Origin: Halobacteriovoraceae bacterium
Lineage (GTDB): Bacteria; Bdellovibrionota; Bacteriovoracia; Bacteriovoracales; Bacteriovoracaceae
Length of the DNA: 64,000 bases
Assembly (NCBI GenBank): GCA_002711995.1
Contig: PASN01000013.1
Location: 186,001 to 250,000, forward strand
Reading direction: 5' to 3'
Made by a program: the position numbers and the translations under genes. Below the pieces are notes generated by a model. The model was not told where the DNA came from. It worked only from the letters and a program-made list of their open reading frames with translations, and ran no database searches. Of this stretch, positions 38,584 to 45,846 are shown piece after piece (position 1 is the stretch's first letter; the number at the start of each line of letters is the position of its first letter).

Positions 38584-40164
38584 ATGGCAAAAGAATTGGT
38601 AATCAACCAGACTCACAATGAGAGTCGGGTTGCCCTTATTGAGAGCGGGGAAATGCTCGACTTTCTTATTGATAGAAGTTCCACCCTCAAAGACAAGCCT
38701 AGCGTTGGAAACATTTACTTAGGAAGAGTGCTTAGGGTTCTTCCTGGAATGCAATCGGCCTTCGTCGATATCGGATTTGAAAGAGCTGCATTCTTGTATG
38801 TAGATGATGCGTATATTCCTACTCTTGATGAACAAAGGGAAATGGCGAAAAGAATTGAGGAGAAGGAAAGGGAAGAGGCAAGAGCGAGTCTTTCCAAGAC
38901 TATACCTGATGAACTCAGCTCTTTGTCTGAAACTGTGGATATGAAATATCGTCCTGATATTAAAATCCAAGACTTTCTAAAAGAGGGTGACGAAATATTG
39001 GTTCAGATTGCAAAAGAGCCAATCTCAACCAAAGGTCCTAGAGTCACAAGACACATCACCTTGGCCGGAAGACACATAGTGTTTATGCCTTTTATAGAGC
39101 ATGTGGGTGTATCTAGAAGAATTGAGTCAGATGAAGAGCGTGATAGATTAAAAGGGATTCTTGAATCTATAAAACCTGAAGGCAAGGGAATCATCGCCAG
39201 AACAGTTGCTGAAGGACAATCCCACAAAACTCTAAAATCCGATTACTCTTTACTGGTCAAGATTTGGAAGGATGTTCAAAAGAAACTTGAAAAACAGAAA
39301 GCTCCTTACGAGGCCCATAGGGATCTAAATTTTATTCAGAGAGCTTTAAGGGACATTACAGATGAGGATGTTGATTCAATTGTAGTGGATTCAAAATCAG
39401 TCCAAAAACAAGTCGATAAGTTTGTTTCAAAATATCTGCCCAATATGAAAGGCAAGGTGTCTTTCTATGAGCAAGACATTCCGGTTTTTGAACATTACGG
39501 AGTGGATATTGAAATAGAGAGAGCGATCTCGAACAAAGTGTACTTAAAGTCTGGTGGCTCAATAAATATTGATCAAACTGAAGCATTGGTTTCCATTGAT
39601 GTTAACACTGGCAAATATGTGGGAAGAAAGACTCTTGAGGAGACAATTCTTCGCACAAATCTTGAAGCTGTAAAAGAAATTGCCTACCAGCTTAGAGTTA
39701 GGAATTGCGGCGGAATTATCATTATTGACTTCATCGATATGGAGAGAGAAGAGCATAGAGAAATGGTCTTCACCTCTTTGTTGGAGGCCTTGAAAAAAGA
39801 CAGAGCTAAAACAAATGTTCTTCCTATCTCCGGGTTTGGCCTGGTGGAAATGACTAGAAAGAGAACCAGAGACACTCTTACACGAGTCATGTGTGAGCCT
39901 TGTCCTTATTGCGAAGGTACTGGGCAAGTTAAAAGTGTAACTACTGTCTGCTATGAAGTTTTAAGAGAGATAACTAAAACTGTTAAGCGATCCAATGGCG
40001 CGCAGGTTAGTGTTTTCGCCCATCCTGAAGTCAGCGCTCAACTTACAAGTGAAGACTTCGAGATTATTGAGGCCATTGAAGAAAACTTTGGAGCTCAACT
40101 GGTGATTAGAGCGGACAACTCATATCACATTGAACAATATGAAATTTTCGCCCATGAAGATTAG
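38584..40164 (+). CDS. rng: Ribonuclease E/G family endoribonuclease
   Basis: A 526-residue RNase G-size protein. It contains an S1 domain (about 35-125, with IYLGRVLRVLPGMQSAFVDIG), RNase H-like and 5'-sensor parts (GPRVTRHITLAGRHIVFMP), a DNase I-like catalytic segment with VSIDVNTGKYVGRK and IIIIDFIDME carrying the two metal-binding aspartates, and a zinc link CEPCPYCEGTG. It cuts single-stranded AU-rich RNA in mRNA decay and rRNA maturation. There is no long C-terminal degradosome scaffold, so RNase G-type. It overlaps the next gene by 11 bp. Confidence 0.9.
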   Translation: MAKELVINQTHNESRVALIESGEMLDFLIDRSSTLKDKPSVGNIYLGRVLRVLPGMQSAFVDIGFERAAFLYVDDAYIPTLDEQREMAKRIEEKEREEARASLSKTIPDELSSLSETVDMKYRPDIKIQDFLKEGDEILVQIAKEPISTKGPRVTRHITLAGRHIVFMPFIEHVGVSRRIESDEERDRLKGILESIKPEGKGIIARTVAEGQSHKTLKSDYSLLVKIWKDVQKKLEKQKAPYEAHRDLNFIQRALRDITDEDVDSIVVDSKSVQKQVDKFVSKYLPNMKGKVSFYEQDIPVFEHYGVDIEIERAISNKVYLKSGGSINIDQTEALVSIDVNTGKYVGRKTLEETILRTNLEAVKEIAYQLRVRNCGGIIIIDFIDMEREEHREMVFTSLLEALKKDRAKTNVLPISGFGLVEMTRKRTRDTLTRVMCEPCPYCEGTGQVKSVTTVCYEVLREITKTVKRSNGAQVSVFAHPEVSAQLTSEDFEIIEAIEENFGAQLVIRADNSYHIEQYEIFAHED

Positions 40165-42179: not shown

Positions 42180-42208
42180 TTGCGCTAAATTGTGCAGACA
42201 TTTAAAAC
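42180..42208 (+). promoter_or_regulatory. Candidate promoter of the S6/S18 ribosomal operon
   Basis: TTGCGC (42180-42185), 17 bp, TAAAAC (42203-42208), 58 bp before the start codon. Confidence 0.4.
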
Positions 42209-42217
42209 AATTTACTC

Positions 42218-42240
42218 GCTCAAAGTTACTAGCTTTGGGC
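42218..42240 (+). promoter_or_regulatory. Leader hairpin before the fused S6-S18 gene
   Basis: GCTCAAAG and CTTTGGGC form an 8-bp stem (one G-T pair) with a 7-nt loop, between the promoter and the AGGAGG. Autoregulation by the S6:S18 complex through leader structures is known in other bacteria, but the CCG signature of that motif was not found here. Confidence 0.4.
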
Positions 42241-42266
42241 TTAAATATAACCCCAGGAGGAATTGT

Positions 42267-42866
42267 ATGATTTATGAGACAGCCTACGCGCTTCGTCCAG
42301 AAGCAAATGAAGAGGCCATCCAAAAAGTGGCGTCTATCGTTAAAGAAGTAGTAGAAGAGAACAAAGGTGAAATTCTACTAGAAGACCATTGGGGTGTAAA
42401 AACTTACGCTCAACCGACTTCAAAAGGTCACACTAAAGGTAATTACTTTTACGTAATGTACAAAACTGACACTCAAACTAACAAAGAGATTGAGAGACGT
42501 TTTAACATCAACGAAGAAGTTGAAAAATTTATCTTTGTAAGACTTGGCGAAGATCAAGACCAAGAAAGCATTGTAAAAGCTTACAGCAACCCTAACCACG
42601 GAAGCAAAGACGAAGCTGGTAGAGATGCTGAGAAAGAAAAGAAAATGTTCCAAAAGAGAAAGTCTTGCTACTTTTCAGCTAAGAAAACTCAACCAGATTG
42701 GAAAGATCCTTCTTCTTACGCTTGGCTTGTAAACGAATTTGGAAAAATTTCTCCAGCTCGTGTTACTGGTCTAAGACCTAAGTACCAAAGAATGGCTACT
42801 ACTGCTATTAAGCGTGGTAGATGCATGGGTCTTATTAGCTACATGTCCAACCAGACTGTTAGATAA
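42267..42866 (+). CDS. rpsF: Fused ribosomal proteins S6 and S18
   Basis: One uninterrupted ORF of 199 residues encodes both proteins. Residues 1 to about 100 are S6 (MIYETAYALRP, HWGVKTYAQPTSKGHTKGNYF, IERRFNINEEVEKFIFVRL). A charged linker follows (about 101-126, rich in D, E, K and A). From about 127, MFQKRKSCYFSAKK, ISPARVTGLRPKYQR and TAIKRGRCMGLISYM are a complete S18. No stop, frameshift or strong internal ribosome binding site lies between them; ATG 42645 (M127) could be an internal start. In most bacteria rpsF and rpsR are separate genes. S6 and S18 form a heterodimer on the 30S platform, so a fusion is structurally sensible. AGGAGG is 6 nt before the ATG. Confidence 0.92.
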   Translation: MIYETAYALRPEANEEAIQKVASIVKEVVEENKGEILLEDHWGVKTYAQPTSKGHTKGNYFYVMYKTDTQTNKEIERRFNINEEVEKFIFVRLGEDQDQESIVKAYSNPNHGSKDEAGRDAEKEKKMFQKRKSCYFSAKKTQPDWKDPSSYAWLVNEFGKISPARVTGLRPKYQRMATTAIKRGRCMGLISYMSNQTVR

Positions 42867-42871
42867 TTAAT

Positions 42872-43840
42872 ATGGTTCTAGGGCGAGAAACTCAACTTCA
42901 GCACGATAGCTTTAAACGCTTGGCGGTTTTTACGCTGGCGTCGCTCTTGTTGTGTTTGAGTATGATTATGTCCATGTTCACTTCCTTTCCTATCGCCTTG
43001 GCGACAGTGATTTATGGAAGAGCGAAGGGATATAGCGCCATGGCAATCGCTTGGATTGCAAGTTTTGCAATCTCGTTTTTTATTTTAAGAAATCCGATTA
43101 TGTTCGCCACCTACACATGCAGCGTTGTTGTTACTGTGATTTGCGCGGAGTTGGTTTTGAGAAATGTAAGGCCTATTAAAGGAATACTTATTGGTGGAGG
43201 CACAATCGTCGCATTGGTGACAGGCCTGTTCTTTGCCACTTTTAATTCCTTGGATATGAGTCCTAAAGAGTATCTTGCCCAGGAGATTCAAAAGAATAAA
43301 GGACAGTTCGAAAAAGAGTTAAAGGACAAACCAACTGACGACGCGTTCAAAATGTTGGCCTTGTTGCAAAAGCCTGAAAAAATGGCTGAAGATATTATTA
43401 AAGAAGCTCCTGGATATTTATTGATGGGTTCTTTTTTAATTGTGTGGGCAAATCTCTTTCTTTTGCTTAAGAGTAAGAGAACAATGCTTGGAGCGAAGCT
43501 GCCTTACACTGATTATGATCTTTTGCATTTTAAAAACCCCGATTCTTTAATTTGGGCGGTAATTGTAGCTTTGGCATTGGCAGTTTTTGGAGAAGAATTT
43601 CATCCTGAGGCTCCAGCGATCGGTATGGTCGCACTAATGGGACTTGGAGTGTTTTATTTCTTTCAAGGTTTCGGTCTTTATTTGTCTTTCTTGAACTTTT
43701 TAAGAATTGGCGGTTTTCTAAGAACTATTTTGGTTATTCTTACAGTTATGATGGCCGCTCAAGTGTTGGCCTTGTTTGGATTGTTTGACATGTTTGTCAA
43801 CTTCAGAAAATTTATGAAAAGAAAAGATCAAGGAGAATAA
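42872..43840 (+). CDS. DUF2232 (YybS)-like membrane protein
   Basis: A 322-residue integral membrane protein with about eight hydrophobic segments: two to four in the first 110 residues, then a polar region (about 135-175), then four more. Position between the S18 and L9 genes is the classic one for DUF2232/YybS proteins in many deltaproteobacteria, and that is the main reason for the call. The start at 42872 is 5 bp after the S6-S18 stop. Function unknown; a link to ribosomal or envelope physiology has not been shown. Confidence 0.7.
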   Translation: MVLGRETQLQHDSFKRLAVFTLASLLLCLSMIMSMFTSFPIALATVIYGRAKGYSAMAIAWIASFAISFFILRNPIMFATYTCSVVVTVICAELVLRNVRPIKGILIGGGTIVALVTGLFFATFNSLDMSPKEYLAQEIQKNKGQFEKELKDKPTDDAFKMLALLQKPEKMAEDIIKEAPGYLLMGSFLIVWANLFLLLKSKRTMLGAKLPYTDYDLLHFKNPDSLIWAVIVALALAVFGEEFHPEAPAIGMVALMGLGVFYFFQGFGLYLSFLNFLRIGGFLRTILVILTVMMAAQVLALFGLFDMFVNFRKFMKRKDQGE

Positions 43841-43842
43841 AA

Positions 43843-44421
43843 ATGAAAGTTATACTTACTGATAGAGTTAAGACTCTTGGCAACGTAGGGGAGATTGTTA
43901 ACGTCTCTCAAGGTTATGCCAGAAACTATTTGATCCCTAACAAGCTTGCGCTTCTTGCTGATGAGGGGAACACTAAGCAAATGGAAGATTACCAAAAGAT
44001 GCTTTCTAAGAAGGTTGAAGAAGAGAAAAAAGCTGCTCAAGACCTTGCTAAGCAACTAGAAGGTAAAACAATCACTGTTACTAAAAAAGTTGGTGGAAAC
44101 GGAAGACTTTTTGGAACAGTAACAAGCTCTGAGCTTTCTAAAGAACTAGAAAAGCAAGGTGTGGTTGTTGAGAAAAGACTTATCAACGTTGATGATCCAA
44201 TCAAAACTTTGGGTGACTTTGAAGTTAAAGCTCAATTGTTTCAAGGTGTAGAAGCTACTTTCAAAGTAAAAGTTGAAATGGATCCTAAGCAAGTTGAAGA
44301 AGAGAAGAAGAAGCAGGAAGCCGCTGCTAAAAAAGCTGGCAGAAAAGGGGCTAAAGAAGGCGAAGAAGCAAAAGCTGACGACGCTGAAGCACAAGAGAAC
44401 GCTGAAGAAACTCAAGCGTAA
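43843..44421 (+). CDS. rplI: Ribosomal protein L9 with long charged tail
   Basis: A 192-residue L9 of the 50S subunit. The N-terminal domain shows MKVILTDRVKTLGNVGEIV and GYARNYLIPNKLA. A central helix and the C-terminal domain (GGNGRLFGTVTSSELSKEL) follow. Typical L9 has about 150 residues; here about 44 more (from about 148) are nearly all K, E, A, G, D and Q, an acidic-basic, probably disordered tail. AAGGAGAATAAAA precedes the ATG. Confidence 0.95.
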   Translation: MKVILTDRVKTLGNVGEIVNVSQGYARNYLIPNKLALLADEGNTKQMEDYQKMLSKKVEEEKKAAQDLAKQLEGKTITVTKKVGGNGRLFGTVTSSELSKELEKQGVVVEKRLINVDDPIKTLGDFEVKAQLFQGVEATFKVKVEMDPKQVEEEKKKQEAAAKKAGRKGAKEGEEAKADDAEAQENAEETQA

Positions 44422-44499: not shown

Positions 44500-45846
44500 A
44501 TGTCTAGAGAAGGTAGAGAATTGCCACATGACCTAATGGCCGAAAGAGCGTTTTTAGGTTGTCTTTTAGTGGACAATAGATCTTTTGATGAGGTTACAGA
44601 CGTAGGCCTAATCGATACTGATTTTTACCATCCTCAATACGGGATCATTTTCAAAGGCATCAGAGAGTTGTCAATTGACAGTAAACCTTTTGACCTTGTT
44701 AGTATTTGTTCCAAACTAACCGACATGGGCAAGCTTGAAGCGGTTGGCGGTCAAAGCGCTATGGTTGACCTAATTGAAGACACCGCCTCATCCGCAAATA
44801 TTTATCACTACGCAAAGATTATTAAAAACAAATCTATCCTTAGGGATATCGTTAGAACTTCCATGAAGATTACTGATCAGGGTGTAAACTTTGTTGGTGA
44901 TGTTGAGGAGTTTATTGACGAGGTTGAGTCAAGTTTCTTTAACCTGGCGGCCCAGTCTAAGAAAAACACAGTTGTAACTTTGAAAGAGGCCTTGAAAGAG
45001 AACTTGCGCCAACTTGAAAAAGGTAAAAGAGAAGAGGGAGAGATCCTTGGCCTTTCCACTGGCTTTAATTCTTTGGACACTAGACTGCTTGGAATGCAGC
45101 CAGGTCAGATGATTATTGTTGCTGCAAGACCTGGTATGGGGAAGACTGCCCTTGCTTTGAATATTGCTATGAACGCCTGTAAGGCGCACAACCTGCCAGT
45201 AATGCTTTACTCTTACGAGATGTTAGCGCCGGAATTAAGTGGAAGGATTTTGAGTTCAGAGGCCAACATCGATTCCAGAAAAATTAGAACCAACGACTAC
45301 AATGAAATGGACCTAAGAAATCTTGGACATGCCGTTCAAAACATTTCAAAGCTTCCAATCTATATAAATGACAATTCTGCGACGACGCTTTTGGATATGA
45401 AGTCTCAGTGTAGAAAGATTAAGGCCGATCAGGGCATGGGTATGATTGTTATCGACTACTTGCAGCTGATGCAGCCCCATGTGAAGAAAAGCTCCAGAGA
45501 GCAGGAGATTGCCGAGATCTCAAGGGGAATCAAGGAGCTTGCAAAGGAATTGGGATGTCCAATTATGGCATTGTCCCAGCTTAACCGTTCTGCAACTTCA
45601 AGAACCGATAGACGTCCTCAGCTCCAAGACTTGAGAGAGTCTGGATCAATTGAGCAGGATGCCGACGTTGTTATGCTTATTCACAGAGAAGACTACTATG
45701 ATGAAAACACCGCTGAAAAAGGCGTTGCAGAAATCATCGTCGCAAAGAACAGGGCAGGGGAGCCTGGCACCGTAAAGACTGCATGGATTGCCGCGCAAAC
45801 GAAGTTTGCAGAGTTGCAATTTAATCCTAATGACCAAGGTCAATAG
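44500..45846 (+). CDS. dnaB: Replicative DNA helicase DnaB
   Basis: A 448-residue hexameric helicase that unwinds DNA at the fork and binds primase. The N-terminal domain starts LPHDLMAERAFLGCLL. The RecA-like domain has Walker A ARPGMGKTALALNIA, IVIDYLQLMQP (Walker B), LSQLNRSATSRTDRRPQLQDLRESGSIEQDADV split across the switch and arginine-finger region, and KNRAGEPGTV. AAGGAGAAGC precedes the ATG. The order L9-DnaB is common in bacteria. Confidence 0.96.
   Translation: MSREGRELPHDLMAERAFLGCLLVDNRSFDEVTDVGLIDTDFYHPQYGIIFKGIRELSIDSKPFDLVSICSKLTDMGKLEAVGGQSAMVDLIEDTASSANIYHYAKIIKNKSILRDIVRTSMKITDQGVNFVGDVEEFIDEVESSFFNLAAQSKKNTVVTLKEALKENLRQLEKGKREEGEILGLSTGFNSLDTRLLGMQPGQMIIVAARPGMGKTALALNIAMNACKAHNLPVMLYSYEMLAPELSGRILSSEANIDSRKIRTNDYNEMDLRNLGHAVQNISKLPIYINDNSATTLLDMKSQCRKIKADQGMGMIVIDYLQLMQPHVKKSSREQEIAEISRGIKELAKELGCPIMALSQLNRSATSRTDRRPQLQDLRESGSIEQDADVVMLIHREDYYDENTAEKGVAEIIVAKNRAGEPGTVKTAWIAAQTKFAELQFNPNDQGQ

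Follow-up and report, generated by a model that had tools for sequence, protein, structure and literature searches.

A translational fusion of ribosomal proteins S6 and S18, found in nearly all of the family Bacteriovoracaceae and preceded by a candidate autoregulatory leader

The window analysed, a stretch of 64,000 nucleotides from a draft genome of 3.7 Mb (23 contigs, 96% complete), contains at positions 42267–42866 of the forward strand a single open reading frame that encodes ribosomal proteins S6 and S18 in one polypeptide (rpsF-rpsR fusion, bS6-linker-bS18). Its uninterrupted translation gives 199 amino acids followed by a stop codon, with a calculated mass of 23.1 kDa and a pI of 9.1. 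The ATG at 42267 is preceded, at a spacing of 6 nt, by a perfect Shine-Dalgarno (SD) sequence, AGGAGG, located at 42255–42260. The next gene on the same strand, a likely member of the same operon, encodes a DUF2232 membrane protein (42872–43840), and is followed by rplI (43843–44421) and the replicative helicase gene dnaB (44500–45846), both also on the forward strand. The L9 protein encoded by rplI carries an acidic, charged and alanine-rich tail of about 45 residues beyond its C-terminal domain. Upstream of the fusion gene lies a divergent acyltransferase-like gene, which scored just under the Pfam cut-off, and a gene of the RNase E/G family is found a few kilobases upstream of the fusion gene (38584–40161).

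Both halves of the protein could be assigned to their families by whole-domain matches over the curated cut-offs. The S6 domain (residues 1–92, 42267–42542) matched Pfam Ribosomal_S6 (PF01250) over residues 3–92, covering positions 2–90 of the 90 in the model (E 5e-20), as well as the NCBIfam equivalog TIGR00166 (46 bits, cut-off 42.9). The S18 domain (residues 130–199, 42654–42863), which alignments identify as the zinc-less (C-) form, matched Ribosomal_S18 (PF01084) over residues 139–190, covering the complete model (1–52 of 52, E 2e-14), and TIGR00165 (59.9 bits, cut-off 38.75); taken together, the Pfam and NCBIfam matches placed the whole S18 at about residues 128–194. The translation and these matches bear out the earlier note, which had read the locus as one frame of 199 codons holding S6, a linker and S18 and encoding a protein near 23 kDa. 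In the 3.7-Mb genome S6 and S18 gave one match each, both at the fusion locus. AlphaFold2 predicted the beta-alpha-beta-beta-alpha-beta fold for the S6 domain with a pLDDT of about 60–85. The model of the complete fusion, calculated from eight sequences and without RNA, reached a mean pLDDT of 59, with values below 55 in the S18 half, a level at which docking of the domains is not visible.

The linker (residues 93–129, 42543–42653) was delimited by alignment. A length of about 26 residues had been proposed for it; measured between the domain ends it is longer, with 37 residues in the alignment, and its truly variable part is roughly residues 101–126. The linker is made up of the C-terminal helix and tail of S6, with the conserved residues K104, Y106 and P109, a variable charged stretch and the basic lead-in of S18. 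Across 42 fused proteins its length ranges from 35 to 51 residues, and it is always in frame. Comparison of the window with its nearest relative gave dN/dS values of 0.09 for S6, 0.10 for the linker and 0.11 for S18, so that, as judged from these ratios, the linker is translated and under purifying selection like both domains.

A charged and presumably flexible linker with a variable mid-part could give access to a protease, and precursors in which ubiquitin is fused to a ribosomal protein are known from eukaryotes (PMC10296562). The fusion might accordingly be a precursor that is translated whole and then cleaved within the linker to release S6 and S18 as free proteins, and such a joint precursor would fix the stoichiometry of the two proteins as well. 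However, no conserved cleavage motif was seen in the central linker, which is poorly conserved (mean top-residue frequency of 0.46), the two ends of the linker correspond to the usual tail of S6 and lead-in of S18, and cutting would be unnecessary for two proteins that bind side by side. Processing into free proteins is thus considered unlikely.

Considerably less probable still is that internal initiation yields separate S18, as an additional or even the main source of this protein. The candidate start, M127 (42645), exists in the window and many near relatives have an ATG at the same place, but the best SD match upstream of it is AAG, which confirms the remark in the earlier note that this codon lacks a good ribosome binding site. 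Moreover, the methionine is not conserved. No ATG is present in the linker of 21 of the 42 fused genes, and 15 of them contain none of ATG, GTG or TTG, so in these 15 S18 can only be obtained from the fusion and internal initiation cannot be a general route to this protein. A linker start with an SD-like match of at least 5 nt was found in only seven of the 42 genes, in some of them poorly spaced; the S6 start, by contrast, is preceded by a strong SD sequence in nearly all.

Related genomes, which the earlier note had proposed to search for the same layout, proved to carry it widely. A total of 129 genomes of the family, the sole one of its order among the genomes compared, were searched and 119 gave a match, the ten others being all incomplete. 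The uninterrupted S6-S18 frame is present in 110 of the 119, in three more (G010, G142 and G070) a contig end truncates the gene, and five have separate S6 and S18 genes (G003, G029, G105, G026 and G020). The best named relatives belong to Bacteriovoracaceae, Halobacteriovoraceae and uncultured Oligoflexia MAGs. Despite the draft state of the source genome, a local assembly or sequencing artefact can hardly be entertained and errors of assembly are ruled out as a general explanation, since the same stop-free frame occurs in those 110 genomes, including near-complete ones of one to ten contigs (e.g. G138, G004, G011 and G015), and in a named relative of 94% identity. When S18 was searched in 242 genomes of the phylum (at least 90% complete), frames of about 200–250 amino acids appeared only in this family among the matches listed, and those of other families in the same set measured 79–162 amino acids. 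In the other families of the phylum that were examined, S6 and S18 are encoded by separate genes, located apart or on different contigs. These observations support a genuine translational fusion that is conserved across nearly the whole family. Such fixation goes beyond the single locus considered in the earlier note and makes the fusion a family trait.

In one genome (G027, locus L014) a TAA triplet is found in the linker, at positions 1864–1866 of the reverse strand, a site that holds a Glu-type codon in relatives, and no ATG, GTG or TTG follows between this triplet and S18. This case counts against the family-wide explanation by a fusion unless the TAA is a sequence error or is overcome by readthrough or an unusual start.

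A closer inspection of the region preceding the gene revealed an RNA element resembling the rpsF leader (42208–42269, forward strand), supported by covariance models and covariation. In the model, CUC at 42215–42217 pairs with GAG at 42257–42259 of the SD sequence, next to a hairpin formed by 42218–42227 and 42231–42240, and two cytosines (42253–42254) are placed 3' of this hairpin. Nearly all fused members share the same succession of CUCGCU, a hairpin of 5–11 pairs with varied sequence, a short and often A/U-rich stretch, CC and AGGAGG. Covariance model R1, built from eight fused leaders, detected the element in the window (42208–42269, E 1e-9) and at nearly all other fused loci, and model R2 detected it in the window with an E value of 6e-14. 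In an alignment of 38 leaders, fitted to the structure and therefore leaning towards it in its pairing counts, 99% of the cells pair (77% when shuffled) and 92 cells changed on both sides (26.5 when shuffled), far above slid controls; an anchored hairpin search that used no model gave the same picture of covariation. A sequence-only MAFFT alignment of the leaders misplaced the variable hairpin and was replaced by a hairpin-anchored one. Free folding of the 62 nt alone kept the hairpin and left the CUC-SD helix absent, and both hairpin and helix were formed in the fold of the longer segment 42180–42275.

Model R2 also found the element in G029, one of the family genomes with separate genes, and before the separate rpsF of other families (L070, L079, L080 and L103), which indicates that the element is older than the fusion. 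The model did not find it in the group formed by G020, G026 and G105, whose loci (L068, L067 and L066, respectively) show a different hairpin and a CC placed farther from the SD sequence, with no CUCGC leader.

At its curated threshold the Rfam family RpsF_leader (RF02893) gave no match in the window or in its relatives, with the E. coli control matched at 110 bits, and our own model did not match the E. coli leader. The case for homology of the two leaders is therefore made by their common layout and location. The E. coli leader, CCUUGCC...GGC-UGAAUAAU-CCG-UAAGGAG, has the same layout, and both elements lie just before the rpsF start and present a hairpin that stacks on a short SD-containing helix, with an asymmetric 3' loop bearing a pair of cytosines. 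The window leader differs in being below Rfam detection, in its shorter hairpin and in the fused nature of the protein that it would control. In E. coli it is the S6:S18 complex, and neither protein alone, that represses rpsF through the leader, and residues K60 and R63 of S18 contact the conserved leader cytosines (PMC4647458). These RNA-contacting residues align with K182 and R185 of the fusion, which are invariant among close relatives, and the motif is largely kept family-wide. The leader in the window thus has the architecture of an S6:S18-binding rpsF leader and is a candidate autoregulatory element.

The sequences surrounding the junction suggest how the fusion may have arisen. In the genomes with separate genes, S6 ends in ...KNYKSPF or a similar sequence, followed by a few residues and the stop codon, and S18 begins with an N-terminal extension of 40–55 residues ending in ...DKDRRMFSRKKSC. 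Fused linkers open with the same K-Y-P tail and close with the same basic lead-in, so that the linker corresponds to the tail of S6 joined to a portion of the S18 extension, a make-up consistent with the loss of an intergenic stretch. Most likely, rpsF and rpsR would have been joined by losing a short stretch between them, with the S6 tail now reading into the old S18 extension.

A second difference concerns the zinc ribbon (CWFC ... C-x-x-H), which the alignment shows to be kept in the five separate S18 proteins of the family and to be missing from all of the fused S18 sequences inspected, about forty in number. That bS18 occurs both with and without zinc is well established (PMC9976891); the fused protein is of the C- form, as in E. 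coli, and its unfused relatives in the family are C+. In this family, as opposed to C+/C- systems elsewhere, the change from C+ to C- coincides with the fusion and there is no second S18 copy. Zinc loss does not need the fusion, since a non-zinc S18 occurs without it in another family of this phylum, f12 (G050 and G057). The separate S18 in f12, for example at the loci L083 and L081 of these two genomes, respectively, lacks the ribbon and shows a short insert after it, GEEDxAN, unlike its phylum neighbours.

In the RpoB+RpoC tree the separate-gene genomes were weakly nested among the fused ones and a single fused clade was weakly rejected (p-AU 0.038), and in the ribosomal-operon tree three of them grouped with one of two large fused clades. 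The combined tree (RpoB+RpoC plus 21 ribosomal-operon frames, 4957 columns) placed G029 at the base of the family (support 98) and did not reject one fused clade (p-AU 0.41). The trees served to test the idea that the five separate-gene genomes are recent fissions. Judged from them, the fused gene may have arisen once, following a few early branches, or twice, or once with a later fission. A bolder scenario, which we regard as rather doubtful, is that the joining of S6 and S18 took place repeatedly in the family, each time with loss of the zinc ribbon, the covalent link replacing a zinc-stabilised S18, and the uncleaved fusion serving as 30S building block and as a translational repressor made of one molecule.

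On the platform of the 30S subunit S6 and S18 contact one another as well as 16S rRNA, and their heterodimer enters the subunit as a unit. Taken as a whole, we consider it probable that the family-fixed fusion works as follows. The single 23-kDa protein would be the only source of S6 and S18 in the cell and would act as a covalent, obligate S6:S18 heterodimer, incorporated uncleaved, whose domains bind each other and 16S rRNA. The flexible linker would bridge the gap between the domains on the platform; as its 35–51 residues can span far more than the width of a small protein, the normal contacts need not be disturbed and it is, in principle, long enough to leave them intact. It is reasonable to suppose that the covalent link fixes the S6:S18 stoichiometry. 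Excess fusion would bind the leader before its own start and block the SD sequence, in the way that the complex of separate S6 and S18 acts in E. coli, so that one protein may be both a ribosomal building block and a putative repressor of its own mRNA.

RimK is known to act on S6 at its free C-terminus. A RimK protein with the RimK N-domain was observed in several genomes that carry the fusion (G000:C6:316391-316669, G004, G009, G015 and G138). As the fusion lacks a free S6 C-terminus, a true RimK would have to use some other substrate in these genomes. A search for RimI returned many general acetyltransferase matches and was unspecific.

The locus shares with the E. coli rpsF-priB-rpsR-rplI operon the same two protein families, a nearby rplI and a leader of the S6:S18 type before rpsF, but here one reading frame holds both proteins, with neither ssb nor priB between them and with DUF2232, rplI and dnaB downstream. 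The eukaryotic ubiquitin fusions RPS27a and RPL40 likewise contain a ribosomal protein within a fused chain, but they undergo cleavage and their other part is non-ribosomal, whereas here both parts are ribosomal and bind each other. No report of an S6-S18 fusion was found in the open-access full-text literature. The proteins and the type of leader are known; what is unusual, in a survey that covered one phylum, is a covalent architecture fixed across a family.

For this family of largely predatory bacteria, the fusion constitutes a clean marker, which may mislead annotation that expects two genes. It further provides a natural example of a gene fusion accompanied by the disappearance of a zinc site. 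A family with a covalent S6-S18 pair lends itself to testing whether free exchange, independent turnover or separate modification of the ends of these proteins matters for ribosome assembly.
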